A stretch of 64,000 nucleotides of DNA from Pohlia nutans (Eukaryota; Streptophyta; Bryopsida; Bryales; Mniaceae), in contig CM040087.1 of NCBI GenBank assembly GCA_022496805.1, positions 27,366,253 to 27,430,252 on the forward strand, in the 5' to 3' direction. The notes below the pieces were generated by a model that saw nothing but the letters and a program-made list of their open reading frames with translations, was not told the origin of the DNA and did no database searches. The number at the start of each line of letters is the position of its first letter. Within the stretch, counting starts at the first letter, position 1. Of this stretch, positions 4,162 to 57,063 are shown in pieces. The translations under genes and the position numbers were made by a program.

Positions 4162-4163
4162 TA

Positions 4164-28260: not shown

Positions 28261-28763
28261 AATACGGGGATCCCCCGATGTCCTCTTAGCAATATTTGGA
28301 CGATTCATAATATAACATAGAGCAATGGTAATTGAAGGACATGAGGGAAACGTGTGTTCGAATTGAAGAAGTACATGCTTTAAACATAAGGAACTCTGAA
28401 ACTATTCTACATAGAATTATTATACTCTAAAGCGAATTAAAACAATTTGCAAAATAAAAGTGACAAGTACCATTGCATTCCGACTAAAGGAGTTAGGAAA
28501 GCAAATTATAAACCTCACTCAGTAACAGTATTCAATTAGAAGGTTTTAAACTAAGAATTTCAATTGAAAATATGACAACATCCCCGCTTGGAATTAAGGG
28601 GCAATAAACTGTACAAATTTTGAATGGTCGACATCTCCATCCATGCCATCAACGAACTATCGGGGGATCCCCCGAGAAAGCCGTCAAAAGCTATGTAGTC
28701 ATTGTAATGACTGCCATGAGCGTCGATTCTATCTATACATATAGACTACAAGTGCGGCCTAGC

Positions 28764-29339
28764 CTAGCGCAAGAGTCGGCGACGGAATTTCCCATCCATC
28801 TCAGATTTCAAGAGGAATTGACTAACACTTTGATAGGAAAAAAGAGGCATAATAAAGGGCAGCAACGCTGTAGAGATATTTGGAATGACGTTCCGAGAAT
28901 TTGGAAACTCCAGCTCCCCTTTCCAGGACCTCGGAAAATAGCAGCAGAGGTTACCATTCCGCCTATTCCTCCATTTGCAGTCATCCACCATCAATATACG
29001 ATCCGGACGACAAATTTCCCGAGTCCTGCAATCTTTCGTCAAGCGCTGAATCCGCTTCTCGCAGTAAGGGTACCAGTTTGGGTTATGGCACTTATTTCGT
29101 CCATATACAAATAATAGTTGTGAGGTAATGTCCTGTGGCAGCAAGAATTGAATAACATGCTGGAGTCGTCCAGCAGGCATCGAAGACCAGATGCCGATAT
29201 GAAAGTAGTTCAGGAGGTTCCGGAAAAAACCATGGAGTCCGGGACGTCGACGGATTCTCTTAACGTCGAACACAGCAGGGTTGATGCCCTCGTAATCCTC
29301 GAAGCAAAGTACACCGTTGACCGAAAACACAATCACATT
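28764..29339 (-). CDS. FCP1/HAD phosphatase-like protein, exon; nucleophile Asp replaced
   Basis: The exon follows an acceptor (CGACTTCTTGCAG) and reads NVIVFSVNGVLC, then RRRPGLHGFFRNLLNYFHIG, IWSSMP, and DRILMVDDCKWRNRRNGN to a stop at 28764. Known: FCP1/NIF-type HAD phosphatases have a DLDxTL nucleophile motif, a W-[ST] motif and a late VDD motif. Here the order and spacing fit, but the first position of the motif is Ser (SVNGVL) instead of Asp, so catalysis is doubtful. It is a paralogue of the gene at 30879-31661. Upstream exons were not resolved; a palindrome lies just upstream at 29408. Confidence 0.6.
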   Translation of the reverse strand, partial: NVIVFSVNGVLCFEDYEGINPAVFDVKRIRRRPGLHGFFRNLLNYFHIGIWSSMPAGRLQHVIQFLLPQDITSQLLFVYGRNKCHNPNWYPYCEKRIQRLTKDCRTREICRPDRILMVDDCKWRNRRNGNLCCYFPRSWKGELEFPNSRNVIPNISTALLPFIMPLFSYQSVSQFLLKSEMDGKFRRRLLR

Positions 29340-30678
29340 CTGCAAGAAGTCGATGCAAAGTGTTAACGTGATAACAATACGGTAAAGAATTACAATAGCA
29401 GAAGAATATCGGGGGATCGCCCAATACTCTAAGACCGAGCGGTTCAATATATCCCACTGCACTAAACTTCAAAAAAAAAGGCAAAAGATATCTGCTGAGC
29501 AATTGTGATATTAGGAAGACGTATTCAGACGCTCCGCACCATACTACTGCTCAGCTTCATTCCTCCGTATAAAACTCTTAGATTCATTAAAATAGTGGTG
29601 ATCATGCATCTGCATGCCCAATCAGACTCCCCACAATTGGTTTACGCAATCAACCTATAAACTTTTAAATTCATTCCATTAAGCATTGCACAAAAATGAA
29701 AATTCGACAACATTATGCTACGGCGAGACACAGAACAACGTAACCAGTATATTTACTCCCACCGTCCCAAAGATATTGAACAACTTGTCTGCTTGGTATT
29801 TCTTTGAGCCAATTTCATTGATATATTGATTAAAAAGGATTCAAAGTATGTCACTAGAATGATAGTTGAACATTGCCTATGTTCATTGCAACCTTAATGC
29901 AATTAGCCAAAAGGAAGTATATTATTGACCTACTTAAAAACTCGGTTCAAACATGACGCCGGGAATACTATTTAGAATAAAACGAGATACCTATTCGCGA
30001 AAATACTTCTCCACGATGTGTACAAGGAAACTTATGGAGCGATAGCCCCATGTACCAGAGCGACCACTAAATTCGGGAGGAGTCACCGAAGTCTAAGAAG
30101 AATCAAAAGAGTAAATGACTAGAAGTGACGTTATCGGGGGATTGCCCCATCGACAATCCCGTCCTCTTTCACTCAGCGTTGGAAATTATATTCTCGATCG
30201 TAAACTAAGATTCGATAGGGACAAGTACCAAGGCTTGTAACAAAAACTCTAAGAGGGGGCCATTAGCATTCTGAAACCTAATCACTTAAGAACTACAGAG
30301 TTCTCAATGCAAGTAACATTCATAAAAACTGAAAGATCTCTCTAAATAGTGGTCTTCATGCATCTGCATTCCCTGCTAAGCTCCCAAAAAAAAGGCATAT
30401 TAATCTGTTGGACAGCATTTATGATTATAATCATGGTCAACAACATATGAAGTGTAATTAGGACTAAAGCTCAAACCTAGGTATGAAATTATTGTTCTAG
30501 GATAGGGACCACTTAACGTATCGGGGGATCGCCCGATGTAGGGAAGCGGCGACATAATCCGGCAGAGGTCACCGAAACCCAAGAAAATGCAGCTATGAAT
30601 ATACAACAATAAAGCAATCGGGGGATCGCCCCATCGACGTCCGTGGTCTCGCTAGCTCAGGCTTCCCAGTTCAAAGTA
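29340..30678. other. Spacer or introns upstream of the FCP1-like exon
   Basis: Four palindromes (29408, 30132, 30520, 30618) sit here. No further coding exon could be supported, although missing 5' exons of the downstream FCP1-like gene may be present. Confidence 0.45.
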
Positions 30679-30963
30679 CTAAACATACGTAACAAAAACT
30701 AATATATTCAACAGACACTGCCCAAGAGCCCAATTACATTTATCAATACACAACACTTTCCTACTTACTGTTTTCAAAATCGTCTGAACAACCATCCCTG
30801 ACGACATCTGCTGGCCACCTGTATGCGGATTGGTCTTTAGAAACTGCACAAGAGCCCAAATACATTTATCAAACCACATTACTTCCTACTTAGTGATTTC
30901 AAAATGTTCTGAACAACCTCCTCTGACGGGATCTGCTGGCCATCTGTAAGCGGATTGGTCTTC
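30679..30963 (-). repeat. Tandem duplication of an exon-end segment, period about 125 bp
   Basis: 30718-30839 and 30845-30963 are diverged direct copies (AAGAGCCCAA, TACATTTATCAA, TTTTCAAAAT, GTCTGAACAACC, GGATTGGTCTT). Both encode a similar peptide: KTNPLTDGQQIPSEEVVQNI in the outer copy and KTNPHTGGQQMSSGMVVQTI in the inner one. Confidence 0.75.
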
Positions 30964-31661
30964 ACATAATCATTAACTGATAATCCTGACTCGAATAGGC
31001 CTTGTAGCCAAGGCCTCAAGACGGAGTCTAAGAAGGTATCAGCTTGGTCATCCTTCCAAGTTGGAGGGTGGATTGCACTATGCTTCACGTTCAGGACAGA
31101 CTTCGTGGGAGTATCGTCCACTAATAGAATATGATCAGTAGTACTTAACGACAGACGCCTCTGCACTACGGTTAGATCCTTGAGATACAGCGGTTTCTTT
31201 TCACCGACCACGATTCCCGCGTCCGTGCAATCAGCTTGGGTTAGCCGAAGAAGCTCCTGTGGGTTGAAGGGGCAACCCTTGGTGGTCTCATTGACCATGT
31301 CCGTAACATTCCTCATGTTGGCGGAACTCCATATGACGATTTTCGCATTGCTATTAACAAAATTCAAGAACTCCGCACAACCAGGTCTAGGATGTATTAT
31401 CCGCTTCTTACCCATTTCAAAGGGGCTTCTAGAACAGAGGACCCCATTCAAGTCAATCACAACTATGTATCGCGGTGGCGGTACCTGGGTTTTTTCTTCT
31501 CGGAGCTTGGGCCCAATAACTGGTTCTGGGAGTTTCCCTGCAATAAATCAAAAACCTTGAGACAACAACATTGGGATAGCGGGAGGATGAATGAGCAAGG
31601 TAACAAAAGATGCCGAAACTATGTGCAATATCATGCAGGTAATCAACAAAAACTACGTACC
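30879..31661 (-). CDS. FCP1/HAD phosphatase-like protein
   Basis: Main exon 30879-31537 after acceptor TTTATTGCAG: KLPEPVIGPKLREEK, PPPRYIVVIDLNGVLC (HAD motif I with Asp kept and the second Asp as Asn), RPGCAEFLNFVNSNAKIVIW followed by SSA (motif II region), and DHILLVDDTPTKSVLN (the acidic VDD motif). Known: this order defines the FCP1 homology domain of Ser/Thr phosphatases. A short upstream exon ending at 31661 (VTPVEEVKQCNDPK), with intron 31538-31660 (GTACGT...GCAG), joins in phase. The start codon is not found. About 220 residues are visible. The role is unknown; phosphatase activity on nuclear proteins is family inference. The stop is TAA at 30879-30881. Confidence 0.65.
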
Positions 31662-31801
31662 CTTGGGATCATTACACTGTTTCACCTCTTCAACAGGCGT
31701 AACTGCACTTGGTGCAGCACCTCAGATCGGGCGACCCCCTGATAGGGTGTTTACATCGAGTAAGTGCTCCCCCTGGGAACCAATAATTGTTAATGCCAGA
31801 T

Positions 31802-31895
31802 TCACATTTACAAGTCAGCCTTAGGAACATTTACAAGTCAGCCTTAGGAACATTTACAAGTCAGCCTTAGGAACATTTACAAGTCAGACTTAGGA
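31802..31895. repeat. 22-bp tandem repeat, four copies
   Basis: The unit TTAGGAACATTTACAAGTCA plus GC repeats four times and overlaps the stop codon of the minus-strand repeat-protein gene that ends at 31877. Confidence 0.85.
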
Positions 31896-33594
31896 ATCAA
31901 GTTAAAGTTAAAGCATTCATGTTCATCATAAGCAGACAGGCTTTTAGTCTTGTACAGATCTTCAAAAGCCGCCTCAATTGCACAAACCTCATCCGACTTG
32001 TTGCGCAATACCTCGGAAATGATTTTCAAAGTGTCCTTGCGAAGCTTTTCCGTGAGGGGATGCCTTAGCTTCGTCCTGGCTTCTTCCTCCTGCCACATCA
32101 CAGACCTTTCAGCTCTCATGAAGTCCTTGACGTTTGTCTTCCGACTGTTACAAATCGCTGACTCGTGCGGCTTTGCGAAGGCTCTCTCGGGAGTTGATGC
32201 GTTCAAAGCAGGGCCTGGAGGAAGAGCAGAGGCGTCCTGCTCCAATTCCGCAGCATTCTGCAACTCGAATAAGTGGCCAAAAGATTCCTCCGGTCCACCA
32301 ACTCCATCTTCCGGTGGATCGTCCTTCCCCATAGGACCCATCGGGAGACCGCCCGATACTGAAAGTGGAACTTCTTCGACGACGTTGACTTGGCTGGGCT
32401 GCAAATCCAACGTTCTGATAGAAGACTCCTCCAGTCCACCAACTCCATCGTCCGCGGGGTCAAAGGACCCATCGGGCGACCGCCCGATACTGTATGTGGA
32501 CCATCAACGACGACGTCGTCTTGGATTTCCTGGAAATCCATTGATCTGCCAGAAGATTCCTCCAGTCCACCAACTCCATCTTCTGCGGGATCGTCCTTCC
32601 CCAAGGGACCCATCGGGCGGCCGCCCGATACTTCATATGGACCTTCCTCGACAACGTCGCTTTGGATGTGCTGCAAATCCATTGTTTTGATAGAAGACTC
32701 CTCCAGTCCACCAACTCCATCTTCTGGTGGATCGTCCTTCCCCATAGGACCTATGGGTCCATCGCCCGATATTGTATCTGGACCATCTGTGCCTTGGATG
32801 ACTTCTTTTACAGGCATGCTAGAGTCTATCTTTGACAGGTCATCCCGACTCTCTTGATTTGGACTATTAGGCGCATCAAGACGCGCAGTCTCAGGATCGT
32901 GAGCAGGACTCATTCTGTCGAGGTCACGCATGGAGTCCACCAAGCATGGGTCCAGAGGTTCTGCCTTGCCCACGGCTTCATCCTCTTCACCTGAAGAAGA
33001 GTTGCCAGAGAGTATCATGGGGAGATCCCCCGATGACCCCTCCACCGTCTTCACTTTTTTTGGCACTCCACCCTCCATATCCAGTGACTGCCCTTGAACG
33101 CAAGCTTCATCATTGGCATTCCCTTCATTAACGAGAGACTCTGCCAACGTTCCGCCCTGTGATTGTGAAGCATCCTGTCTATTTGATGATACAATCTGGT
33201 TGGAACCGATCAGGGGGGCAGCTCCTGAGCGTAGCGCAGCAGGACCTTCGATGGCATCCGCAACTCCTTGCAATGCACCGACGTCAGTTGTTACGGATGA
33301 AGATTTCCTCTTCTGTGCCACTCGCTGCACCTGTATTGAGGTCGGTGTAGTGGGGTTAGCTACCTCGTCACCGACTGCATCAATATGTTGCACATTATAT
33401 GCAAGTATGTGCATAGGCAGCTGCGTCCTCCGAACTTTCGCCGCATACTTACTAGCTATAGCGATGGGATCCCTATAGCCGAATCCAGGCAACTGAGCCC
33501 AAGAAATCTCATCCGAGAGATCAGCATCAGACTCAGGAAGATTCCAAACATACATATTTGCGTGATGCGACTCTGCCTGCACTGACCAGTACAT
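31877..33594 (-). pseudogene. Acidic repeat protein gene with palindrome-bearing coding repeats; frameshifted
   Basis: Starts MYWSVQAESHHANMYVWNLP, with a folded-looking N-terminus (ISWAQLPGFGYRDPIAIASK), then a long polar linker with a basic patch (AQKRKSSS, VPKKVKTVE: nuclear-localisation-like). About 32.3-32.8 kb encodes four copies of a roughly 46-48-residue repeat (consensus pieces GRPMGPLGKDDP, DGVGGLEESS). One palindrome sits in each repeat, encoding SGGRPMGP. In the third repeat about 10 bases are missing near 32455, which shifts the frame; the reading resumes in the other frame at 32410 and ends KTKSLSAYDEHECFNFNLIP near 31877. The family is unknown. The 33594 ATG could also lie in an intron ending GTCAGTGCAG. 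Confidence 0.6.
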
Positions 33595-33680
33595 TGTAAC
33601 ATATAAACTCGGGGAATGCTCATCAAATATTAATTAAGATTTTCACTTTATTCACATTAAGAAAAGCACAAAAGTCATCA

Positions 33681-36600
33681 TCATATCGGGCTTGCGTCCC
33701 TGACAGCATCGATTTCACTTTCATCATTGCGCAGTCCAAACAGAGCCTTAGCCGCAGACTTAGTAGTCCCTGGACTTGACTGATTGTGCGGAACAGGAGA
33801 GGGGGAATCAACCCGCTTGCGTTTCTTCGCAGTCCCGTCGCCCTCGTCCTCGTCTTCGTCCTCTTCCTCCTCCTCACGATCGCTGTCACTATCGGACACC
33901 GAATCAACTCTGACACGAGAGGTTGATCTGGTACGAGGTCTCGAAGTTGTGGCTTCATCCGCAGCTTGTGGAACAGCTGTACATGTAGGTTCCGGAGGAA
34001 GAGGTGGCTGCACGGGACTGTCAAAAATAGCCTCTTTGCTGATGACGTCCCACATTCTTTGTGTTCGACTTCTGGCGTCGTCGAGCCGACTATCATTCTC
34101 CACAAACTCCAAGACACTGGCGTTGTTTCTCTGCGCAAATCAGTCCAAGCGTCATCGGTCGATCCCCCGATGTAGTGACAAATACTCTCAACAAAGATGG
34201 GGCGATCTCCCGATCAACTGGCAATTATTGCAACATAGATGGAGCTAAATAATGCGAATCTGAACTATTGAATCGTGAAGGAATTTCAGAACTTACCAAT
34301 CCCACGTATGTAACATTGGGGCCCCCATGTAAATTGATAAGAAGTATATCCTTCTTCAGAAAACGCTTGAACATTTTAGACGCAGTGCTCAAATTCAAGG
34401 ATGCACATCCCGGAATTCGCCATTCTCGGTCGACTGTTACATCCGAGGAGTCAGCTGCTGAATACACTGCCGATAATCTATCCCGAGACCCTCTGTCCCT
34501 CTCGAAGAAGATGTCGAAGTCTCCACGTGTCCCATGCCCAATCCTCCCGAATAAAAAAACAACATACACTACAACTTGAGCGCTGATGTCGCATGGAGGG
34601 AATTCATCATCAGGCTGTGGAAGGTAGTGCACGACATGATAATCCCATGAAGTGGCGTTCGATCTTCCTTTCCGCACTTCGATCTCCTTTGCAATTTGTG
34701 TCATCCCGCGCACGTCCGTGATGAAGATTGCTGGTGAGTGTATATTGACGGTCTTAATCTCCTTCTGCTCACATGCGTCAAAAATCACCGAAAGTCTTCT
34801 GTCTTCCAACAGTCTTGCCTTCGACTTGCCAGTTTCTACGGTTGTAAAGCAGAAACAGACAAAAAGAAACCTAACTTCATCGGACATGTCTTCCAACCAG
34901 CTCCGAAGGTTGCCATCATCACTCATTGCTGCACTCAGGTTCCCTTTGAACCAATCATAAGTGACGCATTTGTACCTTTTGGAATACAAATCAACGTCTT
35001 GAAGTTGAGGACGGTCTGAGTCTTGTGCACCGTAGGACATATATACGCTCTTGATGTTGTCGGGAAGGTCGCCGGGTTTGGGATTCTTCACTAAATTGTC
35101 AAGGCGCTTATTGAAGTATGCCTCTCCCTCGGGTAGTTTCAGTATTCGCGAAAGAAGTGCCATCATTGTCTCGCGAGTGTAACCCCGTTGCGTCGCCAGA
35201 GCATCCCAATCCGCAGCTAAATATGGGATGTACTCCGCCTTCCTGCTAGGTAGAGGAGATTTCTTGAAAAGATTCATAAGCTCGTCTTTCATGGCCCGGA
35301 GCTTCCTCTCTTGGTTACAGAAATCAACCATAGACATCATGGTCGCAGGTGCGCTCTTGGAGTTCGTGCTCTTCACGCAGATTTTCTTCTCCAGGATCTG
35401 ACTTGCAACAAAATTGACGTCCTCATTCCGCATCCCATGAAGAATTTTCAAGTCGTTCTCTACAAAGTTCTTCCGCCCACTAACTCCTTGACTATGCGGA
35501 GCAACAACTCTTCCCCATTGGTCTGGAAGTCTTCTTGCTAACCACTGGTTCTCAATCGAAACCCACTGCTCAAACTCACTGTCCTCTAGATATAGCAATG
35601 GAAGTCTTCCATCTCCTGCATTCTTGGATTTCACTGATTTACCCGCGAATATAAGCTTCACCTTCGGGAGGAATTCATTCTGAAATCAAAAAACGAAACA
35701 CCATGAGTATGATTTCATGAAATGGGGAGATCGCCCCATGAAATTTCCTACTGATCAGTCAAATTCCTGAAGCATGGGGCGATCGCCCCGTGAGCTATTC
35801 CAAATGAAGTGGACTCTAGGAAAAACGATTCCGATATAGATTTATATAATACCATGGATTACAAGAGGGAATCACCTATACATTAAGCATATCGGGCGAT
35901 CGCCCCATGTTCTATTGCACTACCAAAATTGAGATGCATTATGGCCTCATCTCACCTTAAATTTTGAGGAATGCACGCGTCCACATAACGCAGGCATGGG
36001 CCGATTCATCTTGTGCCACGCCACTCGAGCATTTCCAAGCTGTTGCATGAATGTCTGTTCTGTTCGCTTGCCCGCTACATCTTGATTCAATACTCGGGAT
36101 AGATACAGGAGCTTCTGGAAATTACTCTATTCGCACCAGACTGGGATGATACTAAATTTTGACAGCAAGCCTCTCTTAAAGTCAGAAATATGGTCCTTCG
36201 TGCTCAGGACCTGCTTGTGAGCTGCTACAGTGTGTTGGCCGCCAATGATGTAGTAGTGGGTACTCGAGTTAATCCAAGTCTTCTCTGGTCTGCTAGAGAA
36301 GTAGATTGGCTTCTCGTTAGCATAACCCTTCAGGGGCAGAACGATCACCTGAGCTCTGACAAGGCTAATGTCGAGAACTATTTCCACCTGCATTGCAATG
36401 CGATCTACTCTGTCCTGGACGAGCCCTCGGTACACCATCGTCCCAGGCTCTGCCCGGTGAAGATGGTCGTAGTGCACGTGCAGCTCTTGGCCGTCTGGAC
36501 TCTTCCATGATTCCATCCCCATTGTGTTTTCTGAATGATGAATATAAAGTGGGGAGAACTCGGCATCGTAGAGCTTCCTGATCTCTTCTCTCAGTTCAGG

Positions 36601-37332
36601 AGTCAAGCGTTTTTTGTCGTCAGATCCGAAGTTCACAGCATCTGCGAGGGTCAATTCCTGCTTCTTCCCAGCTTCATCTTTCTCGGTTGCAGTCTTCTTT
36701 GGACGCTTCGGCTTCATTGGTGACTTGCGCTTCTTGCTCGAAGTTGTAATATTTGCCGGCGGGTCCTCTCCAACAACAGCAGATTCGTTTTGGGCATCCA
36801 CCAGAAGCTCCCAAGAATTTTCTATACCCTCGACTGTTTCCTCCGGATCCTCGTAGATTTCAAACCCCCTCTCCGTCACAGATGTGCATAATGCTGAGTC
36901 CAATTTGTTTGCGTCTACAAGTAGTCCAAATAATCGGGTATCTGTGTCCTTCCCAAGTGGCAGTTCTTCGATAACTAAGAAAATATCGTGTCTACGATTG
37001 TGAGGCACATGTATTCCCAATACTTGGACACCTACTGTAGTACTCTTAGACTTCCCTCCTGCTGCAACCATTACTGGGATGATTTTCGCACGCTCGTCCG
37101 ACTTCTTTTGCCACATCAACCCCCACCCTTGAATATGAGGATCAGCTCTGAATGCACTTCTAACGGGGGTCTCATCATCCAACTCAAAGTTCTCATCTCG
37201 CAACCACACATCGACATACCGGGATAGCCGTCTAGGTTGAAGATCAGGAGGTGCCTCCGAATACTTTGGATGCCTGCGTGGAACACTCAGGGTCATTAGC
37301 ATAAGCGACTTACATATTCTGAAGTCCGCCAT
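33681..37332 (-). CDS. ParB/DGQHR-like large protein, three exons, one in-frame TAG
   Basis: Exon 1 (35956-37332) starts MADFRICKSLMLMTLSVPRR, has a basic linker (SSKKRKSPMKPKRPKKTATE) and a block MVYRGLVQDRVDRIAMQVEI...THYYIIGGQHTVAAHKQVL, which resembles the ParB/sulfiredoxin-like or DGQHR motif (Y-I-I-x-G-Q-H-x-x-A-A). A TAG at 36127-36129 interrupts an otherwise open frame that continues SNFQKLLYLSRVLNQDVAGK. Exon 2 (34297-35679) and exon 3 (33681-34130) join in phase 0 through GT-AG introns (35680-35955 and 34131-34296), which hold three and two palindromes. Exon 3 ends in an acidic run (SDSDSDREEEEEDEDEDEGD) and a basic patch (AKKRKRVDS). About 1,070 codons. The family link is by motif only; a DNA-binding role is inference. 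Confidence 0.55.
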
Positions 37333-39430
37333 TCCAATTCACTCTCACCCTAGAGAACCCACGCATATGGAATGAATATAAGTCTGGCTAGAATTTAAGA
37401 ATAATTATCCGGCGACCCCCCCATGCATAAGGATTATGTATACATTGCTTTTAGTTCACTAATGCGCACTACACATCGGGCGACCGCCCCATGCGTATTG
37501 AGCAAAATGCAAGACTCTATAACGAAGGCAAATAGTACTCTAGTCGTTATTGTGAACCTCCATTCCAATTCACTCTCAGCCTAATGAATCCTACAAACTC
37601 TTTCCAAAGCCAATGGCAGATGGTATCAGATCCATAAATGCATCGGGCGGTCCCCCCATGCATAAATTCTGAATATCTATATTAACATGGGTCTGGCAAG
37701 AATTCTAGAAAAAATATCGGGCGACCCTCCCATGCATAAAGATTAAACATCTATTGGATTAAGTTCACACTTGCGTACTTTACATCGGGCGACAGCCCCA
37801 TGCGCGTAGAGCTGAATGCTAGACTCATCAATGAAGGAAAATAGTATTCTGGACGTTATTGTAAACCGCCATAACAATTCAGCTTCAGCTTAATGAATGC
37901 TAGCAACTCTTACCAAAACCAGTCGCTCATAGTATCAGATCCATAATTGCGTCGGGCGATCCCCCGATGGTCACTGTGAGAATTTGCTATGAAGGAAAAC
38001 TATTTCAAGCAATTATAAGCATTTTACATCGGGCGACACCCCCATCGTGAATGACTGATTTCCTACTGTTCTGTGTTTAATAGGATCATCTCATTCACCA
38101 TGGGGGGGTCGCCCCATCCTTTACAACCATTGGGGGTCTACCCGTCATGTCATCGGGGGATCGCCACATTCTCTCATGCAGAGTGCATATATTCTGCATT
38201 GTAGGGATTGAAATATAGCTCTGGCTAGAATTGAAAATTTAGTATCGGGCGACCCCCCGATGCATAATGACTGAATATCTATTGATTCTAGTTCAGTCAT
38301 GCGCACTTCACATCGGGCGACCGCCCCATGAAGATTGAGCTAAATGCTAGATTCTACATCGGTCTCTACCATCGGGATTTGTCTACCCCAAACCCTAAAC
38401 CGAAACCCTAAAAAACCCTAAACCCTAAACCCTAAACCCTGAAACCCTTATGCTAGCAGTTTTCGCGAATGAACTGTACGGATCGGTGGATCTCCCGGTG
38501 TACTCTAACCTCTACTTCACAGTGTTTGAGCATCAGAATAGGAGCGCAGATTTGCAACTTACTGCATTTCTGGAGGATCCTCTCTGTCGGTGGATTCTTC
38601 GACTACTAGCTTTTGCCGCTGCTCAAACACCGTTTTGATTTTGTCAGGGCTGCTCCTCGTTATCCGAGCGGTGCTCTTTGTTCGCGCCAGACTTGAAACC
38701 TGGAAGTTGCTGACGTGCTCACTTCATAATCTATATATGAATCCTGCGTGCACACGACAATTCTCTCACTCAGTCCTGACATATGTGGACGTCCTAACTC
38801 GTATAATCCACTTCGAATGAATAACAGTGAAATGTAAAAACTAATACTTAACTAACAATTGAGATTGCAAAGCAACAATGACCGCAAAATCACCAAACAT
38901 TATAGACAGCGTTTTAGCACTTCCACTTTGAAATTCGAAAGACCTGCAATTCGAAAGACCTCAACACTAAACCTACGTCTTCTGGCCATTGCTAACTCAA
39001 TAATGATCGGCATTGCGCATTCAACGGAATCTTAATGACAGAAATTAGGTTTGATGCGTGTGTGAGAGGTAAGAAGCGTGCATGAGAGAGCGCGTGCGTG
39101 AGAGAAGAATCCAAACCCAAGAAGAAACCACAGATCAGAATTCCAAACCCTAGAACTACAGACTTACCTTCTGGGGTGCAAAACAGAGCCTTCAACAGCA
39201 GCAGCAGCAAGCGACCATCACCAACAGCAGCGCGACTTCAACCGCAACCAATAGCAACTGAAATTCAAGCGCTAAACAAGCTAATCAAACCCTAATCAAG
39301 CTCCCGCAGCAAAAGCTCTGAAGGCACAAGTTTTGAGGAAACTGGAGGAGGATGGTGAGAGTGAGGGAGCGCGGGAAAGGCTATACGTACGCCGCCCCTC
39401 GTCACCAGCCCCTCTCGATCACATGAGTTC
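37333..39430 (-). promoter_or_regulatory. 5' leader of the left unit: CTG-rich exon, palindrome-filled intron
   Basis: On the minus strand a leader with GCTGCTG/GTTG repeats (39190-39270) ends CACCCCAGAAG at a strong donor (GTAAGTCTG, near 39167). A proposed intron ending GTTCTCTAG, a few bases before the ATGGCG start at 37332, contains the left palindrome cluster and a telomeric-type (CCCTAAA)n stretch. The same plan recurs in mirror image at 45.2-46.4 kb. Exon use is inferred from sequence signals. Confidence 0.5.
38388..38448. repeat. Interstitial telomere-type repeat (CCCTAAA)n
   Basis: About seven partly degenerate CCCTAAA units in a row. Confidence 0.9.
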
Positions 39431-39450
39431 GAAATTCAATCATTTAAAGT

Positions 39451-42540: not shown

Positions 42541-42865
42541 TCAATTTGTCTTAAAACTATATGATATGCTTAAATATAAACTTAATAAAGTGCATGATTA
42601 TTTGTTCTAATTAGTAAAAAACCTTAAATACACAGTCCTTTCGCTACTATAATGTGAGCAGGTGCTAGTCATGATAAATTAGGAAAAAATTCAATTTTTG
42701 ATTTTAACCTACATAGCACATGATTATTGTGTACCAACATGCCATCTATAATACCATGTAATTTTTGTAATTTTCCAATAATTTATTCATTACTAAATGG
42801 ACATTCCTCTAATTAAACTCCGGACAGTCCGGGAAGGGGTACCTTGATCAGACCCGGACCTTGAC

Positions 42866-44090
42866 ATAAATTATTGATGATGATTGCACAATTATGTATG
42901 AATCTAGGGGCAATAATTGGGTCCACAAGTTGCAGATAGTTTGAACCTTTGGATGTTGTTGTTGCTTTTAAGCAAACTTGTCACTATTGCTTAAAGTTGT
43001 CATGCAAAAATTAAAAACACAATTCTGTTATAAGTTGACTGTAGATATGATGAACATTCAATTAAAACGGCATTGGAAGTATGTAGTCAGAAGTTGTTTC
43101 ACGAAAAATTGGATATAAGTAGACTATATAAGAATGATGAGTATCTGTCATGATAATTTTACATGAGTGATGAGTTTCATGAATCATGACATAAATTATG
43201 GATGATGATTGCACAATTATCTATGAATCTAGGGGCAATAATTGAGTCCACAAGTTGCAAATAGCTTGGACCATTGAATGATGTTGTTGCTTTTAAGCAA
43301 ACTTGTCAGTATAGCTTAAATTTGCCATGCAAAAATTGAAAACACAACTTTCTTGTAAGATGACTGTAGATATAATGAACATTCTTACTAGAATCATTCA
43401 CTAAATAAATGAAGTCTTTCATGTCATGGAGTGAATATTAATTATTGTGGAATTCATATATATTAATTGTGGAATATTCAATTTATAATCGTGAAATATT
43501 TCATTTATGTCATCATTCATATCAAAGTATCGTATTAATTGTGGAATATTCCATTTATGTTCAGTAAAGCAAATATTCCATTTATTAATTAAATATTATG
43601 GAATCAACTAAAGCGAATATTCCATTTATAATTGTGAAATAATACCCCATTTATAATTATGAAATATTTTTAGCAGCGAAAATTCATACATATTAATTGT
43701 GGATTATTCCATTTATGTCATGATTCAATTTTAATTAGAAGTTGTTTCACGAAAAATTGGATATAAGTAGACTATATAAGAATGATGAGTATCTGTCATG
43801 ATAATTTTACATGAGTGATGAGTTTCATGAATCATGACATAAATTATGGATGATGATTGCACAATTATCTATGAATCTAGGGGCAATAATTGAGTCGACA
43901 AGTTGCAAATAGCTTGGACCATTGAATGATGTTATGTTCAGTAAAGCAAATATTCCATTTATTAATTAAATATTATGGAATCAACTAAAGCGAATATTCC
44001 ATTTATAATTGTGAAATATTTTTAGTCGCGAAAATTCATACATATTAATTGTGGAATATTCCATTTATGTCATGATTGAATTTAGAAAAT
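42866..44090. repeat. Local segmental duplications (three overlapping copies)
   Basis: A block containing GATGATTGCACAATTAT, GAATCTAGGGGCAATAATTG and CAAGTTGCA occurs at about 42875, 43200 and 43848. A longer block from GAAGTTGTTTCACGAAAAAT to GATGTT (about 195 bp, nearly identical) is at 43088-43282 and 43738-43932. A TTCAGTAAAGCAAATATTCC block repeats at about 43560 and 43937. Confidence 0.85.
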
Positions 44091-44394
44091 AATAATTTAT
44101 CAAATATGATACTCATAATTGATATATATATATCATGATTGACAATCATGTCGAATGATCCCCAAATAACAAATCATCATAATTTGCGTAAGCTAAGAAA
44201 TATCAATCACGTCCTTCTTGGAAGCCTCATTGCAATGCAAAGCACCTCAAGCTATCAAATTCATCCTTATGCTTCCTTAGAGAAATTTGTAGCGATTTGC
44301 ATGTAACCAAAGGAAATTCAAGCAATTCGCATGTTCCTTCGCAGTGTCATGTTGTAAGTTCTTAGATTAATTTTCAAAGGTCCTAACTTCTCCT

Positions 44395-44513
44395 AAACCC
44401 GAAACCCGAAACCCTAAACCCTAAACCCTAAACCCTAAACCCTAAACCCTAAACCCTAAACCCCAAACCCTAAATCCTAAACCCTAAACCCTGAACCCTG
44501 AACCCTAAATTCC
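44395..44513. repeat. Interstitial telomere-type repeat (CCCTAAA)n, longest in the window
   Basis: About sixteen CCCTAAA or near-CCCTAAA units, including several perfect ones in a row, about 700 bp upstream of the TATA box at 45199. Confidence 0.92.
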
Positions 44514-45198
44514 ACTTCAAATACCCCAAATTGTCTTAGGTTCATACAGTTCATAACATACCCCAAATGGTCATACAGTTCATAACGTAGTACCAAAGCA
44601 GGTTGGACCTAAAATAATTCTTAAAATTAAAAAACTTAAAAATTAATACATTCTGAGGACAGAAAAACAAAAGCGGATAAATTAGTTTTTGAAATATTTT
44701 GCTATTTCTAAGCTATTTAAGGTCATTTTTACTCATTTTTTTGCGATTAAGGTCATTTTTACTCTTTTTTACTCAGTTTTTTGCGAGAAACCTCCATATT
44801 GAGAAAATCAGGTTTTGAAAGGTGAACATAATTTTACCAAAATCAAGAAATTTTCGTTCGGCAGGTCGCGAACCTCAGGAAATTTAGTACTCTCAGACAT
44901 AATCAAGTATTAGAAAAGGCATACAATGCACTTTACAGAATGTCCCTCGGTCCATTTCAGAATTACCCTCCGTTTCTGAATTATCCTTGCAAAGGAGACT
45001 ACTACCTAGGTGCAATGACTATGAGGCTGGAGTTGAACTATGAGCCATGGTACTAGTTCTCGTACATGACACTCATGAACTAAACCGAAGTGCGTTTGAC
45101 GGCGACTCCCATGTCTAGTAAATATGCTTATTTAATTTATCTCCCAATGTCCTAGCCATTAGATACGGCCCCCTCCTTTTTTTAAAAGCGGAAATGAG

Positions 45199-45206
45199 TA
45201 TAAAAA
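45199..45206 (+). promoter_or_regulatory. TATA box of the right unit
   Basis: TATAAAAA, followed after about 10 bp by the pyrimidine-rich ACTCTCTCCC, a plant-like core promoter arrangement. Transcription would start near 45.23 kb. Confidence 0.5.
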
Positions 45207-45224
45207 TCACACTCTCTCCCGCTA

Positions 45225-46415
45225 AAATTCTCATCACTTCTTCAAAACTTCAGGTTGTCTTCTTGATTCACTTCACTTTCTGAGTCAAGTATCCAGTGAT
45301 AGTCGCTCATCCAATTTCGTTCCGTTGCCACCATCGTCGTTTGTTGTTGTTGCTGCTGTTGGTAGAGTTGCAGCTGTTGCTGCTGCTACTGCTGCTGTTG
45401 CTGTTGTTCCTGCTGTTGCTGCTGAGTTTGGAAGCGTTCACCCCACATTCTGATATAACGAGGTAAGAGTCACTCTCTGAATCGCATTACATCAGCTACA
45501 TATTCTTGACTTAGTGAAATGTGAATTGTTTCAACCGCACCGCTGAAGAAATGTGATAGCTGTTTACCGTAGCATGTATCGGGCAATTCATGAGTACCAT
45601 TGTCTTCACTGACATGTAAAAACAATCAGGTTAATAATTATGCAGTTTCAGTATGGCAGAAATTTATGGAGCAGTAGTATAGCAAGAATTTTTCCAGCTC
45701 CAGGATTCATAGCAGAATTGTCAACCTTGAGCGCTAGTAAAACTCCAACACTGTTCAAGTAATTGTAGCCCTATATATCCAACAGCTTGGATTATTATGA
45801 TAGGTTTCATGGAATCATAATACATCCTCATATATTTAGAAATAGTAGTCTCTGAACCATTCAATCAACATTGAATTGTGTCGTTCGTCCAAGCGGTAGT
45901 ATGAATCAAGAGTTTGCGATGTCAAAATTATAGAGCTGTGATGACGTCGACATGTACGGATGCCATCCCGAGATCATATCATCAGGGGATCGCACGATGA
46001 TAACTCTCAGACTAGGAATACTTGTAGTAGTGATACATCGGGCGATCCCCCGATTCACCAAGTAATGGTGGTATTGTTTCCGTACTAAGACATCGGGCGA
46101 CCGCCCCATACACTATGTGCAGGAAGTGTAGCACGACCAGCCTGAACATCGGGCGACCCCCCGATGCAAGTCAGTTATTGAGGCAGCTGCAGAACAGGAC
46201 GTCAGGCAGGAGACCATTATCGGGCGATCCCCCCATACACCGTAGCACTACGTGTTCAAGACCTGCATCGGTTACGTAGCAGCATCGGGAGATCCCCCCG
46301 TCCTGCATACGACTACTTGTTGCACACAAGCGTCGGGCGATCCCCCGATACTACTCCACGCCGCAGGTAGGAGATCACTATTGGGCGATCCCCCGATAAC
46401 TTCTGACGCCGAGGC
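45225..46415 (+). promoter_or_regulatory. 5' leader of the right unit: CTG-rich exon, palindrome-filled intron
   Basis: A leader rich in GTTGCTGCTG repeats (45335-45430) followed by TTCACCCCACATTC ends at a strong donor (ACGAG, then GTAAGAGTC, near 45462). The following stretch holds eight palindromes (45981-46399) and ends just before ATGGCC at 46416. The arrangement mirrors the left unit. Exon use is inferred. Confidence 0.5.
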
Positions 46416-49400
46416 ATGGCCTCTGGGAGCGGCTCGAATTCTGAATCAACCAACGCCAGGTCGGCACGCGGAATTCAGCTCCGCAATGGGATGGACGTCA
46501 CACTCCTATATCCCGATATTGGTGAGGTCGGTTCCGGATTTATCCTTGAAGCTCAACCAGTTGGGATCTGGCTTGGAGTTTGTTATCCGGACGATATTCA
46601 AGAGTATGTTCTGCTACGGCCGTCTGGGATTTATCCAGAGTTCTTTACTCTGCCATTACATCCTCGACAGCTTGGCATCAGTGTGATTGGCCAAGCCTTA
46701 GATAAGACTGTTCTCTGGAAAGTTGACGATTTGATGATACCATCGGGCGATCCCCCGATGGATGAGGATGTCGCCAACGCGGATTGTCCCTTCCTTGCAA
46801 GATCGCAATGGGTGGGGCATGAAATCCTGAAGAAGGCAGAGAACGGTCGGGTTGTGGCGTCGGGAAGAGTCAATTGCTGCTTTCCGACGGATCATTTCCA
46901 GGACAGTACTTTGGGCGATGGGTTTGTTGGGGTCACTGTCCTTCAAGTAATGGACGGTGACGTAATGACGATCATGACGCATCAGAAGTAGCCAATTTCA
47001 GAATGTTTCTTCGCTTTCGGTGGTCGCAGTCTCAATGCCACTCTTCTTCACTTTGCTTCACTTCCTGAAGTTGTCGACCCGGACGCATATCTTGGAGGAG
47101 TTCAGAAAGCTCCTTATCGATATCTCAAGAGGAAGCGCTGTGAAGATCCCAAGGTATCCCTGTATACCAAGAAGACGGAAGAGGCTGAGATTAGACTGGT
47201 CAGCGCTGAGAAGTGTTGCAGTTTACGATGCTGCCAGGTATTCCCTTGGGCTGATACTCGCTCTGTTAGACAGTTGTTCTATCTGAAGAGTTATGAAGAT
47301 CGTCGTGAGTATGCCATCGCCGCTGGAGGACAGATGCACGCAAAGGAGGGGATGAGAGTTAAGTATATTACGCTCATGGGAAGTGAGGTTTGCGCAACGG
47401 CTTGGTATAAAATTCATGGTATTGCCAAGTCCACATTCCATTCGTATATGGAGAAGTACAATGAAGGCGTACTTTCTGGTCAGCATGGAAATAAAGGCTG
47501 CAAGCGGCCCCAGATTGGGACAGTTCAGGCCATGGGCACAATTGCTGCGATCGTGGCTGAGAACGCTGATCAAATGCCTAACCAGATGCGTGGAACCGGA
47601 AAGCACAGGCGAATGGATACCTTGAAGTACCTTCCGTCTGGAAACAATTGGACTCGAGTCCACGCTGATGCAAATGAGGTGCGTCTCTTGTGCTTCTTTT
47701 CTCTACATCGGGGGATCCCCCGATGCTTCCATAGAATTGTGTGCCTGATTACTGTAATTGCCATTCATTTGTTTTGTTAGCTAACTTATAGACTTTGATC
47801 ACACACAGACAAACGTGTCTTACGGCCTTCCGCCGGTCAGTCAGTCTGCCATTAGCCGGATCAAGAAAGGCATGTTCAACAACGTTGCTATCAAACCTGT
47901 TGGAAGCAGTTTTGCCAAATGTACCGAGTGCGACACACTTCAGCAGTTTCTTCTAAGGTGTCCCAAGGGCAGCCCCGAGTATGTTTCATTTCTGAAACAA
48001 CGAACTTCGCATTTGAATCATCAGGCATCATGCCGTCGACTCTATGCTACTTGGAGAGAAGAATCGAAGCGAAATCCCCAGGAATTTCTTTGCGTAATTC
48101 ACGACAAAATGGATACAGCCAAGACAGCTCTTCCAAGGATGCGGACTACAACAACGGCAACCTCCGGCTTGGACCAGCTTCCCATGAACGTTACTGGAAT
48201 GGTTGCTCATGGCCACTGCGACGGCGCGTACGCGCATTACTCACCCAATTGCTGGCCGTGCGATTCCAATGCCACCATCTCTTTGCTTGCAAGATTATTC
48301 AGGCAGCTTTTGGAGCCACCTCTCCGAGAATCACGGGCGCTTTTTCCCCATCCCCCAGCTAATTCTCTGTTTGAAGCATTGTTACGCGGAAAGTCCAGGT
48401 GCATCGATGCTTTGACGGTGATGGATCCAAGCAAATGTACTGGCCGATCCCGGCTTCCTCCAAACTTGTATCTTCAATTAGATAATTCCGCGAAGGACAA
48501 CAAGAACCAGTTCCTGATGGCCTTCCTATCATTGCTTACGGCAAAGGGGGTGTTCAAGGAAATCCAGGTGGGGTTTCTATTAGTTGGACATACCCATGAA
48601 GATATTGATGCGTACTTCAGCCATCTATCGAAGGCACTCAAGAACACAAATACTTTTGTGCTAGCGGACCTCATGAAGGCATTCATGCAGTCCCAGGAAT
48701 TGTCATTCATGCCAGAGTTTGTGCAGGAGATTGCTGATTTCAAGTCCTATATCAAGGGCTACCAATGCGATGGGGCAACTCGATTAATTGGCCTTGGCGA
48801 CATGCACCTCTTCAAATTCTATGTTGACTCTGACGGCTGGCCGGTCATGAGATGGAAGAAATCTGCGGTGGATACCGAGTGGCAGCCGCAGAACAAGCCA
48901 GCAATTCGACTTTGGAAAGAGGACGACAACGGGCGCCCATTACTACCGTCTGGTCCGTTACATCCAGTCCCTTTCAAGCACATGTGGGGCAGCGAAATTC
49001 CATCAGCAACGGGGAATCAGGAGAAGGCAAGAGAGTCTGCAGCGAAAGCGACAGAGCGGCGGACTTTCATGACGCTCGGAATCCGCAAGTACATTGAGTA
49101 CTGGAAGAGTGGTCGGAGAAGGTGCTCGACGTTTGCTGCTGCATTCGAACCTTATGTGCAATACTGGTCTCGAGTCCTCGATGAGCTACAGAAGCCTCTC
49201 CCCCCAACACCAGCGCGCCTTGTGGAGGGCTTTTGGTCCATACACGATTGGAGAGGGCCGTCGTTCACCATCCCACGCTTGACTTTGTTACCATTCGACG
49301 AGACTCCCGAGGACGAAGAACCTCAGGCGTAGTGCGGGCCAGCAAACGAGCGGCCCGAAGAACGATTTAATCCCTGGCGCCAGATCGCCCCTCTGTGGTG

Positions 49401-49737
49401 GGTCCTTCTCAGACCTGAAAACCTAGTAGTGTGTCCTGTATGGCTGGGAAGGGCTGTGTCTCCAGTGTGTAGGGATGAAGGGGATGATAAATATGGAAAG
49501 TTCCTTATCCAGTATTGGGAGCCCCAGAACGCAGCACGAGATATGGCTAAGAAGTATGAGAATTGCTGGTCAGCTAAGTGGGTTGTGGAGGACCGCCGTC
49601 CTGAATGGATCGACGTTGCTGCTGTCTTGTACGCGTCTTACTCTAGGACCGCTAATCCAAAGTCACGTACCATACCCAAGAGGGATGAAGCTCGTGCGTT
49701 AGACAACTTGACGAGAGCGAACATTGCAGATCCCTGA
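46416..49737 (+). CDS. DUF7869-like DDE transposase-type protein, two exons, two in-frame TAGs
   Basis: Exon 1 (46416-47678) starts MASGSGSNSES and carries a first domain of about 190 residues (GMDVTLLYPDIGEVGSGFIL; unknown family), a TAG at 46989-46991, then in the same frame EKCCSLRCCQVFPWADTRSV and MGSEVCATAWYKIHGIAKST, typical of the N-terminal Cys-rich part of DUF7869 proteins. The intron 47679-47808 (GTGCGT...CACACAG) holds a perfect palindrome. Exon 2 has CVIHDKMDTAK, LYLQLDNSAKDNKN and VGHTHEDIDAYFSHLS, which fit a D-D-E/D catalytic triad. A second TAG (49330-49332) is followed, still in frame, by PVWLGRAVSP...GKFLIQYWEPQN up to TGA at 49735-49737. If the TAGs were sense codons the protein would have about 1,060 residues. 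Family assignment is from memory of motifs; transposase function is inference. Confidence 0.65.
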
Positions 49738-51106
49738 ATGGAATTTCCGTGACAGTGCGAGTGGGAGGTGCATCATCGGGGGATCCCCCCATGAGCATTA
49801 TTCAATTTTAAGGCGATCTACCAGCGTCGATCACGCCGAGATGTCGTGTACTTGGGTTCACTTTGCAGGGTTTAGTGTGGTTTCATTCTGAATTTTTCTA
49901 TTTGGCGGAAGTTAGTTTTACGGACTCCACTACTTTTGCACCCCCACCGTTTTACATATTCTGGAGAATGTAATTTTATCTCGACGATAAATCCATGCGA
50001 TGTTTTATTATTGACCTTTTTGTTTTTTTCCTCGCTGGGAGATGTTATATGCAATGATTTAGACGAATCGCATTTTCTTTGGGTAGTGTCAACCTGGAGG
50101 ACGCAGTTCTGTTTCTGCATATGAATTCCGTCAAAGGATAGGGCGATCTCCCGATGGTCTCTGTATGCTGCTCCGAAATGAATTGCTTTCTGAAGCTTCA
50201 GGCCGGCGCCAGTGGGTGTTTCAATATCCCTAAAGCGCTAAAGGATCGGGCGATCGCCCGATGTTTACTAGTTGCTGCTTCTAAATAATGTTTCTAATTC
50301 TGTTGTGCATTGCTTTGCTCGCGCGGGATAGATTTCTCAGGTAGCTCTTGCACAGAGTTATCTTCTGTGGATGCTTCTCATCGTGGTTCGCTACTACAAT
50401 ATTGTTCTGTCTTGCGAACGAGGGCTTCTCCAAGATATATCAGGTAATTTGGCGTCCAGAAGTACCACTTAAATGTAGCATTTTGGTTACCACCTCTTAC
50501 AAGTTAGAGTTGTTTTGAACCACTCTTTCAAGAGCAATTTGTTCTGCATTATTTGATCATTTTAATCATCTAATTTCCCTCATATCTTATGTATTATGTA
50601 AACAATTGTCTTCGAAGAACTTTGGGATTTAATCGGGCATTCCAGGATGTATAATTGGATTTGGAATTGAATAATATAGTTGCTCCACTGATATTAACGT
50701 TGTCTATTAGCCAGTCTTACCAGAATCAAAGATGAGTTATGAATGTGTAGACAATTCATGATAGACAATTATGCATAATTATGGATGTGTAGTACTGAGA
50801 TTTCATATGTATAATTGTCTATCATGAATTTTGGGAATTAGATCTGCAATTGAATTCAGTCGGGGACAATTATTAGCCGTCTTTGTGAATGCATGCAATT
50901 GAGAGGGCTACGTACATAGCCTACTGTAGGGTAATCTACGTACTTTGTGTCGACTGGCGGCTCACATGAGAGTGCAATTCATTTGAAGTGTGAGCTCTCC
51001 TTTACCTTCATTTTTATATCTGGATGTGTGAGCTTCTTCTCCTTCACCATTCACTGCATTCCCTTCCTCAGTCACCTTCCTTTGCATCATCTGCATAGCC
51101 AACTCC
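49738..51106. other. Spacer between the DDE gene and the 145-residue gene
   Basis: Palindromes at 49773, 50140 and 50245. The last contains GGCGATCGCC, a perfect palindrome core. No gene is supported. 50640-50860 has short AT-rich inverted blocks around CAATTATGCATAATTATGG. Confidence 0.5.
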
Positions 51107-51544
51107 ATGGACTCTAGACTCCCTCCCCAGGCTGAGCCACCTCTCCCTTCGCATCCAGGGACTCGGGGTGCATTGACTGGATACCTGTGGTTAGTCTACA
51201 ATTCTGATGCAGTTGATCGTCTTCCTCCTCATCCATTGTTGCATGGGCTTGTTAGTGGCGAGCCCTGGAACTGGAACTACAACTATACTCTAGAGTTGGC
51301 ACGTTTAGAGGCTCATTCTGACATTGCATGGGATGATGTTTCCGACCTTGTGAATCGTCCATCCTCGGATATGCTTCGGGCGGTGCCGGTGATATACCAG
51401 GCTTGCGGGTGCGTGCTCCTTGATTTCTGCGATTGTTCTTGGACATCAGCGCCCGATAGCACGGGGAACGAAGTCATTCAGATATCATCGGATACATCAG
51501 GAGCTATGGATACCGCATCGGTGGGGAGCAACCGCCAAGCTTAG
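51107..51544 (+). CDS. Hypothetical 145-residue protein
   Basis: Not recognised. An ATG in a good plant-like context (CAACTCCATGG) opens a frame MDSRLPPQAEPPLPSHPGTR, then GALTGYLWLVYNSDAVDRLP, an aromatic/acidic middle, and DFCDCSWTSAPDSTGNEVIQ to a TAG at 51542-51544. It lies downstream of the DDE gene in the same direction within the palindrome region, so it is probably an accessory gene of the element. GC content is above the flanks. It has three clustered cysteines (ACGCVLLDFCDC) but no known motif. Confidence 0.5.
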   Translation: MDSRLPPQAEPPLPSHPGTRGALTGYLWLVYNSDAVDRLPPHPLLHGLVSGEPWNWNYNYTLELARLEAHSDIAWDDVSDLVNRPSSDMLRAVPVIYQACGCVLLDFCDCSWTSAPDSTGNEVIQISSDTSGAMDTASVGSNRQA

Positions 51545-53379
51545 AATTTGCATTGCCAGCACCTCCCGGATTACTCGTCTGCCGTTTGCTTTTGGGATTC
51601 GACCGGCTGGTTTCGGGATTGCGCGTGCAAAACTTTTGCCCTGCTCATACCAGTATTGCGAATTTTGAGGCGCCGAGGTATTTCAATTTTTCTGTTGTGA
51701 AGTAGTGTATGTTTTCTTTTGCCCAGCTTGGAGGCGTTTGCTCACTGGTCAGGAGCATGTACATTTTTTTTATGAATATATATTATACCTTCACAAGCCG
51801 TTGTAGGAAATGACCCACAAGAGCTCATGTGTCTCCGGCAGAACATACAGTGATCAGTGTTGTGCTTCTTGAGGTTCTAGGAATACTCTGTAATTACTGC
51901 CATGGCTACCTGCACAATGATGTATATAGGGGAAAGCCACCGCTTTTATCTTATGATTCATATGTCTCACGCCGTGTCGGGGGATTGCCCGGTGTGTGAT
52001 GAGAACTTTGTGTTCTTCTTTTTAGGCGTTCTTATTCTATCCTGCATCTGATGTTCTTATGAGTATCGGTGGATCGCCCCATGTTGACAGGATAGTTGAG
52101 TTTTGTATTCGTAATGGACTAAATTTCCTACTTCGGATTGGGGGATCGACCCATGGGAACCATCGACCTGCTGTGGCGGTTGTTTTTTTAGTTCATTACT
52201 CTTTAAGGAGATCTTCTAGTAAGAAGAAGTCATTTTCTCTTACCGTGTCAATGAAGCTGGTGCATGGTGACTGGTGTTTGTGTTTTCGTTCTGAGGAATT
52301 CTATTATCTTCCTGCATCTGATGCTCTGCAGAGGGTCGGTGGATCCCCCCATGTGATCTGGATGCTGGACTTCTGTATTCTTCATGCACTAAGTGTCCTA
52401 CTTAGGACCGGGGAATCGACCTATGTGTAATATTTCCATTTGATATTTCGCAGAGTATCGATGCACCCGATCGGGGGGTCGCCCCATGTTTACAGGGTGC
52501 TTGACAGATTTGCTGGGGCGTTTTCTTTTTTAATCCTGTTATTGGAATCGATACTTTACAATCTCCATTTTCACACGTAAGATAAGCAAGCGCACTTCAT
52601 TATAGTCTCGCTGTTTTAGACTCTCTCCATTTCGACACACTCTCCTCCAAGTATAATCAATCATCGGGGGATCTCCCCATAATTCTCTGAATGTTATATT
52701 ATTATGTTTAAGTTAAGCACACATTTACTAAAGTATTTCAGAAATCAATGAATCGGCTAGAAGATCTTGGTGCCCATATTGAATTGAAAAATCTTAGTAA
52801 TTTGAAAAATTTTACCCTGAATTTTCAAGGTTTAGTAATTGCAAACTCCTTCAATCCCATTTTATCGGGGGATCCATCGATATATTATGGCTGCTTGTTA
52901 TTCCAAGACTCTGGACTGTCCATATTTAGTTAAATAAAGTATTTAGCTATTATTCGAATATTCGTCTATTTTTAGTAAAATTTTAGACCTATAACCGTGG
53001 AAGATTTGGTACCTATTACCGTGGTTTAGGGTCAGTGGTTCAGGGTTTAGGAAACATTAAAGGCAAGTTGTCTCTATAACCGTGGTAATTACGGTTTAAT
53101 TCGGGGTTTAGGGTAGAAAGAGATTGTTATTTCAGCGTCTTATTACTGGCCAATCCACTCGTTTGGGGATAATTATTCACAATTGCATAGCAAGTTTAGC
53201 GTTTAGACCAGTCTGGGTTTAGGGTTTAGGGTAAAAATACCAGAGTTTAGGGTTTAGGGTTTCGTAAATAATACAACATGATTTTCAAATCTGCAGTAGT
53301 GGCCCTTTTAGTCTCACTACAATTTCATTGATTTGGAGAGTGAACATGTCAACAATGGAACCAACAACATTTTTATATC
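51545..53379. other. Right edge of the palindrome region
   Basis: Palindromes at 51977, 52061, 52137, 52334, 52406, 52471, 52662 and 52864. 52010-52175 and 52280-52440 are two diverged copies of one block (GTTTTCTGATGTTCT/CTGATGCTCT, GATCGCCCCATG, TTGTATTCG/CTGTATTC, CTACTT). No gene is supported. Confidence 0.55.
53018..53262. repeat. Degenerate interstitial TTTAGGG repeats
   Basis: Scattered GGTTTAGGGT units (53021, 53042, 53097, 53216 and 53240 onward) in the orientation opposite to the CCCTAAA blocks at 38.4 and 44.4 kb. Confidence 0.75.
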
Positions 53380-56983: not shown

Positions 56984-57063
56984 GGTCTACTTTTGGGGAA
57001 GTGTAAATTCAAGACATTCAATGCAATCCAGAAAGAGAGTGAGGATTTGGGAAATGAGCGCTT

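Follow-up and report, generated by a model that had tools for sequence, protein, structure and literature searches.

The window analysed here is a stretch of 64,000 nucleotides, C3:27366253-27430252, of the 697.8-Mb assembly of the Antarctic moss Pohlia nutans. It contains two genes arranged head to head: a DUF7869 gene, and gene A, which encodes a ParB-resembling protein followed by phosphatase-like exons. Both lie in a region rich in a 20-bp palindrome, which an earlier note on this DNA had pointed out. Judging from its alignment with other copies, the palindrome-bearing region is a single decayed copy of a DNA transposon of about 25 kb, here called family F1 (Table 1), and the palindromes may be binding sites for a protein of this element.

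Motif clusters found elsewhere in the genome align with the region, which identifies it as a repeated element. Four other F1 copies match the window from position 28171 and reach about 100 bp further left, up to the inverted repeat ATGCGRTATTTAACTAAATATGGAC; their left-end sequence is ATGCGATATTTAACTAAATATGGAC, with a single-base difference in one of them. The sequence GTCCATATTTAGTTAAATAACGCAT, common to three F1 right ends, is the inverted form of the left repeat, and the terminal inverted repeats are about 25 bp long. Target duplications of 4 bp (TTAT and TATG) were observed in both F1 copies for which the two ends were available. Both of these copies are longer than the window copy and contain extra sequence. 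The window copy is decayed, as about 100 bp are gone at its left end and both main frames contain an in-frame stop; loci lacking such stops exist. A ParB-like match lies within 45 kb of 33 of the 34 F1 DUF7869 loci, and the two genes are head to head in all 33. The motif-free centre is largely present in copies C2_133, C2_1325 and C2_3396, and partly in copy C1. Because most of this stretch (~38.5-45.9 kb) aligns with other copies, it belongs to the F1 element. CCCTAAA telomere-like arrays are found at 38385-38448 and 44392-44509, at the borders of the motif-free middle, and at 53225-53262, just beyond the right end.

The fold of a DUF7869 relative (P0001) matches Mos1 and integrases, and the RNase-H-like core of the model suggests that DUF7869 is a DDE/RNase-H transposase. 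The terminal inverted repeats and the target duplication of fixed length (4 bp) are those of a cut-and-paste element. This is evidence that DUF7869, a family of unknown function, would comprise transposases of large moss elements with inverted repeats. The first frame of gene A is 96% identical to P0121 and exhibits the motifs IIGGQHTV..AHK and IIPVW...LLYLSRVLNQD; we take the patterns IIGGQHTV.A.K and IPVW..LL.LSRVLNQD to be ParB-like.

The earlier note had counted about 45-50 palindromes between 28261 and 52882. With up to 3 mismatches on the forward strand, 49 matches were obtained, 48 of them inside this region and the other at 3473, in agreement with that count. A weight matrix, made symmetric for the two strands and derived from sites of the window itself, gave 52 sites with a score above 11, namely 51 inside and one at 3473, where a mean of 0.03 is expected by chance (30 Markov simulations of the region). 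With a second symmetric matrix and a score above 18, all 50 sites fell inside 28261-52882. The claim that none occurs in the other 39 kb is thus correct for nearly all sites, but not for 3473, which, like a weak site at 42392 (score 5.8), is a variant form of the motif. Confinement to one 24.6-kb region was confirmed too, but the motif is absent from ~38.5-45.9 kb within it. The palindrome at 47706 is indeed perfect, but it is the only one of 48 sites in which all ten pairs are complementary; as so few sites are perfectly palindromic, two approximate half-sites describe the motif better.

As the same note had stated, the sites cluster at both 5' ends, with arrays upstream of both genes. The array of the transposase gene comprises 14 sites in C1, 14 in C2_1325, 13 in C2_133 and 7 in C2_3396; 48-bp units are observed in these other copies. 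The sites are mainly located in introns and intergenic DNA: only 7 of 50 fall in frames supported by homology or as open reading frames, although such frames account for 39% of the element's length (P = 1e-4, binomial). The introns of the window copy are deduced from reading frames, not from transcripts. The reported spread into a coding repeat was also found, since five of the seven in-frame sites are in one exon and four of these five within its 131/141-bp repeat. Sites also occur right after the conserved ParB exon (35890, 35773 and 35721). A ParB-like protein from another source (P0123, 46% identical, 1519-bp contig) runs 22 residues beyond the end of this exon into (A)SGDPPM, which is the motif translated in frame; this read-through is a single case among 126 proteins.

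In the 698 Mb of the genome, the exact 18-bp F1 pattern gave 1047 forward and 979 reverse matches, counts that overlap because symmetric sites score on both strands, while the reversed control gave 0 and 0. Among the matches listed (68 distinct places, on C1 and C2 only), 60 have a listed element gene at a distance of 35 kb or less. Stretches near element genes make up 0.4-1% of the four contigs compared, the length of C3 being assumed in this calculation. Four of the remaining eight listed places are in recognisable element fragments (L032 and L034). The genome search proposed in the earlier note therefore shows a motif concentrated near element genes, not evenly spread.

Related families exhibit palindromes of their own. 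In F2, represented by L033 (C1:36280001-36290000), gene A has the same order as in F1, the ParB-like protein is 32% identical, and 19 sites of a form close to TATCGGRGGATCCYCCGATA are present. The noncoding blastn alignment between F1 and F2 is limited to a 61-bp block, which is also found in two short repeats. A DUF7869 match is absent from L033 and the adjoining 10 kb. The F3 form, about CATCGGGAGATCYCYCGATR, was found at all 10 loci examined, with 2-7 sites each (50 in total) and none within the transposase match; at L047, eight sites lie upstream of the ParB-like gene. The F3 pattern matches the genome 348 times on the forward and 302 times on the reverse strand (control 0), and among the F3 matches listed, 62 of 69 distinct places are within 35 kb of a listed gene. 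F2 and F3 are sister families with variant palindromes at corresponding positions.

Two further lineages, F4 and F5, carry palindromes unrelated to that of F1 upstream of DUF7869 or ParB-like genes. For the F4 palindrome, TTTAGCTCGASTCGAGCTAAA, the P. nutans genome has 301 places (control 0), and with up to 4 mismatches it was found neither in the window nor in 11 other loci checked. A contig from another organism, L008, which is part of a cyanobacterial metagenome-assembled genome (MAG), encodes a DUF7869 protein and contains seven TTTAGCTCGASTCGAGCTAAA-like palindromes, all noncoding and none in frame, for 0.025 expected. DUF7869-like genes are present in L008, L009 and L010, contigs binned into cyanobacterial and Bacteroidetes MAGs; these contigs are probably eukaryotic contamination. 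Between two F4 places in P. nutans, a 1.8-kb stretch contains an open frame with the ParB-like motifs LIDGQHHIQAAK, which resembles P0127 (24% identity across 107 residues; E 4e-8 when the 1.8-kb stretch was searched on its own). In F5, nine sites of a form close to TTCAACTCGASTCGASTTGAA occupy the 1.2 kb upstream of one DUF7869 gene, for 0.02 expected. This locus was the top-scoring of the 71 L008-like loci that were scored, and its sequence was unseen before the upstream 1.2 kb was tested. Among the loci examined, a ParB-like gene with upstream sites is present in F1 (the window and its copies), F2, F3 and F4 (one locus each).

The symmetry of the sites was assessed by comparing half-to-half matches with those of halves randomly re-paired. 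The 48 F1 sites gave 352 matches against 356.5 +/- 5.5 expected, and the 19 F2 sites 155 against 156.2 +/- 1.8. As the halves vary independently, without matched changes, a protein dimer fits, whereas a hairpin does not. The sites were also compared with their flanks in other copies, using noncoding sites in alignable stretches. In C1, the most diverged copy compared, motif identity is 93.4% and that of local flanks 79.0% (n=29, P < 5e-5); in C2_1325, the values are 94.8% and 90.3% (n=41, P 1e-4). This higher conservation is observed despite 4.4x more CpG in the motifs.

The element specificity of the sites, their family-specific variants and their independent halves support the suggestion of the earlier note that the element encodes its own binding system, possibly dimeric. 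The palindromes would be recognition sites, arranged in arrays, of a two-fold-symmetric (dimeric) DNA-binding protein that the transposon itself encodes, and we consider it rather probable that such a self-encoded dimeric protein acts on the element's own promoters and chromatin. The ParB-resembling protein of gene A is the most likely binder, and this assignment is plausible but tentative; the DUF7869 transposase is a second, more doubtful candidate. The binder would coat the noncoding DNA, above all both promoters, and keep the two genes expressed. By analogy with VANC on VANDAL elements, this coating may keep the element open against host silencing. In related families, site and protein would diverge in step, which would let each family act on elements of its own kind. 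The ParB-like motifs suggest a mode of loading and spreading similar to that of ParB-parS. A bolder version, which we regard as speculative and unlikely, is that a group of plant transposons adopted a ParB-parS-like system. Each lineage would then have a ParB-type protein and tens of matching palindromic loading sites, through which this protein would coat its own 25-kb element and shield it from silencing, and site and protein would have radiated jointly, giving five or more site types within a single moss genome.

The transposase or a TnpA-like partner could instead bind the sites to form a synaptic complex for transposition, as TnpA does in En/Spm. Sites are indeed present near both ends, the first about 60 bp inside the left repeat in four other copies and the last at 52863, and a DUF7869 locus of another organism has a palindrome of its own that flanks the gene on either side. 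However, the sites show no subterminal concentration: the densest arrays are upstream of the two genes, some 10 and 7 kb away from the closer end of the element, and many sites are located between frames of the genes. This role is therefore unlikely. It is less likely still that the elements have recruited host sites to which a transcription factor or insulator protein of the host binds. The arrays upstream of genes, with their spacing of about 50-60 bp, resemble promoter arrays, but most listed exact places adjoin element genes, and a single host factor does not account for the clearly different palindromes that related elements use within the same genome.

Tandem duplication in noncoding DNA could also have produced the sites as a functionless by-product. 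Tandem units of 309 bp (at 37382), 131/141 bp and 48 bp (the last in other copies) carry some of the sites, more than 70% identity is reached by 8 of 55 flank pairs in the gene A array (37.4-38.3 kb) and by 4 of 6 pairs from the coding repeat, and three of five copies exhibit no significant extra conservation. In the 45980-46379 cluster, however, none of 28 flank pairs exceeds 70% (mean 0.58 versus 0.55 for shuffled sequence), and among dispersed sites only 1 of 325 does, their flanks being close to shuffled sequence. As the flanks of this 8-site array and of the dispersed sites are nearly unrelated, tandem duplication accounts for only part of the sites, and the single tandem expansion that the earlier note had named as evidence against its idea is not what the flanks indicate. 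In addition, sites in the two more informative copies (C1 and C2_1325) are better conserved than the adjoining DNA, and the palindrome persists between F1 and F2 although their noncoding alignment is reduced to the 61-bp block. A by-product of duplication is thus very improbable. Least probable of all is a hairpin or cruciform, or a tiny self-spreading palindromic insert like miniature inverted-repeat transposable elements or organelle palindromes: the units are short, palindromic and dispersed, but the halves lack covariation with only 1 of 48 sites fully self-complementary, in noncoding sites that the alignment covers completely, gaps are 1-3 nt long and none is a clean 20-bp absence, and the flanks mostly lack a shared unit.

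Several observations weigh against a self-encoded dimeric binder or its identification with gene A. Linkage cannot tell which product binds, because the two genes travel together, and the proposed roles in binding, expression and methylation are deduced from sequence alone. Neither Pfam nor NCBIfam gave a match above cut-off for the ParB-like protein, and PDB gave none, so the call rests on motifs; below the cut-off, weak profile matches include DUF6551 (0.029) and TPR-like (0.006), among others. Its structure model failed, with a predicted local distance difference test score (pLDDT) of 36. The excess of motif over flank conservation is small and not significant in three of five copies (C2_133, P 0.06; C2_3396, P 0.46; C2_415, P 0.07). 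Some fully aligned noncoding sites score below 18 (3 of 31 in C2_133, 1 of 45 in C2_1325 and 1 of 11 in C2_415), and small gaps affect 2 sites in C1, 2 in C2_1325 and 4 in C2_3396. Among the places listed, 4 of 68 for F1 and 7 of 69 for F3 are away from listed or recognised element parts. F5 rests on one locus. The listed F4 places, on C1 and C4, lie away from the 71 L008-like DUF7869 loci that were scored, the nearest being about 73 kb away by eye; as 71 of 2350 candidates were scored, the 2279 unscored ones may account for this distance.

Other features were observed in and around the F1 copy (Table 1). In the second NIF/HAD-like frame of gene A, the first motif residue is altered (DLNGVL to SVNGVL), and both NIF/HAD-like frames are kept in F2. 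The repeats at 3372-3626 and ~42230-42561 contain the 61-bp block common with F2 (L033:484-544; 98% and 97%). Each contains one F2-like palindrome 89 bp before the block (3473; 42392, weak), and the repeat at ~42230-42561 has inverted arms of 45 nt (78% complementary) at its borders. These two short repeats may be miniature F2 derivatives that kept one palindrome, one of them being inside the F1 element. A second element, at 52942-57805, abuts the right end of F1; its three frames (53380-56986) gave no Pfam match above cut-off and appear Mutator-like (MULE-like) by eye only. A relative of this element lies beside a DUF7869 fragment in L032. The window also contains a 128-bp satellite (59521-63995, 35 copies) and a 417-nt inverted repeat (4159-5200), 96% complementary, with arms 208 nt apart.

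Table 1. Features of the F1 copy and its palindromes, in positions of the window.
Feature	Position	Strand	Remarks
F1 transposon copy	28171..52941	.	~100 bp of left end lost; right end at 52941
First palindrome site of the window copy	28261..28280	.	
Gene A, second NIF/HAD-like frame, diverged	28764..29468	-	SVNGVL; PF03031 E 1.2e-6
Gene A, NIF/HAD phosphatase-like frame 1	30879..31547	-	DLNGVL motif; Pfam PF03031 E 1.1e-17
Gene A, middle, low-complexity frames	31877..34139	-	131/141-bp coding repeat at 32329-32787
Palindromes in the coding repeat	32339, 32470, 32611, 32752		Fifth, 33016, in same frame, beyond the repeat
Gene A, open frame, probable next exon	34225..35685	-	F2 frame similar (tblastx with L033, 27-42% identity)
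Gene A, first frame, ParB-resembling protein	35950..37332	-	461 codons, one in-frame TAG
Array upstream of gene A	37406..38330	.	11 sites; twelfth at 38481
Motif-free central part	38501..45960	.	CCCTAAA telomere-like arrays at or near borders
Array upstream of the transposase gene	45980..46398	.	8 sites, spacing 48-71 bp
DUF7869 gene, N-terminal part, two frames	46407..47702	+	tblastn: P0105 (47121-47591), P0108 (46791-47585)
Single perfect palindrome	47706..47725	.	Between two transposase-gene frames
DUF7869 core and C-terminal domain (predicted transposase)	47785..49737	+	PF25273 E 1e-44; single in-frame TAG
Last palindrome site	52863..52882	.	59 bp inward of right end

With regard to known systems, KDZ, Plavaka and Lanisha/CMCT elements combine a DDE-type transposase with accessory genes, as here (PMC12730594). 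The same source gives target duplications of 8 bp for Zisupton (KDZ) and describes CACTA, Plavaka and Lanisha as a clade (CMCT) sharing C(2)C and H(3-4)H motifs, which are situated between the second D and the last E (PMC12730594). The 4-bp duplications of F1 differ from the 8 bp of Zisupton and do not support membership of that group. Residues 241-286 of P0001 contain no cysteine, by eye and if D241 is the second D, which does not support membership of CMCT. Bacterial ParB-parS likewise relies on palindromes of about this length (16 bp for parS in one published abstract), and the motifs of the gene A protein appear ParB-like. In contrast, the present system is that of a eukaryotic transposon, has tens of sites per element and exhibits no sequence match to ParB families. 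The TnpA sites of En/Spm, which are about 12 bp long and subterminal, are likewise short repeated sites of an element bound by an element protein; unlike them, the sites described here span most of the element and are concentrated upstream of genes.

VANDAL elements belong to the MULE group, whereas the present element has DUF7869 as its candidate transposase and a ParB-resembling protein as the candidate binder. For VANC of VANDAL21 and VANDAL6 in Arabidopsis (PMC5735166, PMC10398659), a short motif is, like here, repeated in noncoding transposon DNA (introns, intergenic and terminal), and VANC proteins of related VANDAL families act on their own family. VANC targets also arose in part by tandem repeat formation and exhibit family-specific motifs, as here (PMC5735166). 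The VANC motifs are 8-9 bp long and the main text, as far as it was available, does not contain 'palindrom' (PMC5735166), whereas the present motifs are 20-21 bp long and two-fold-symmetric. For VANC, binding and methylation loss are demonstrated, whereas the present system is known from its DNA only. As with VANC, the motif occurs in noncoding DNA of the family that would encode its binder, with family-specific variants. The F1 system would be a second, apparently independent case of sequence-specific self-recognition in plant transposons, which is best known from Arabidopsis VANDALs. As its palindromes are long and countable and several diverged protein-site pairs occur in one genome, the evolution of a recognition code is directly testable.

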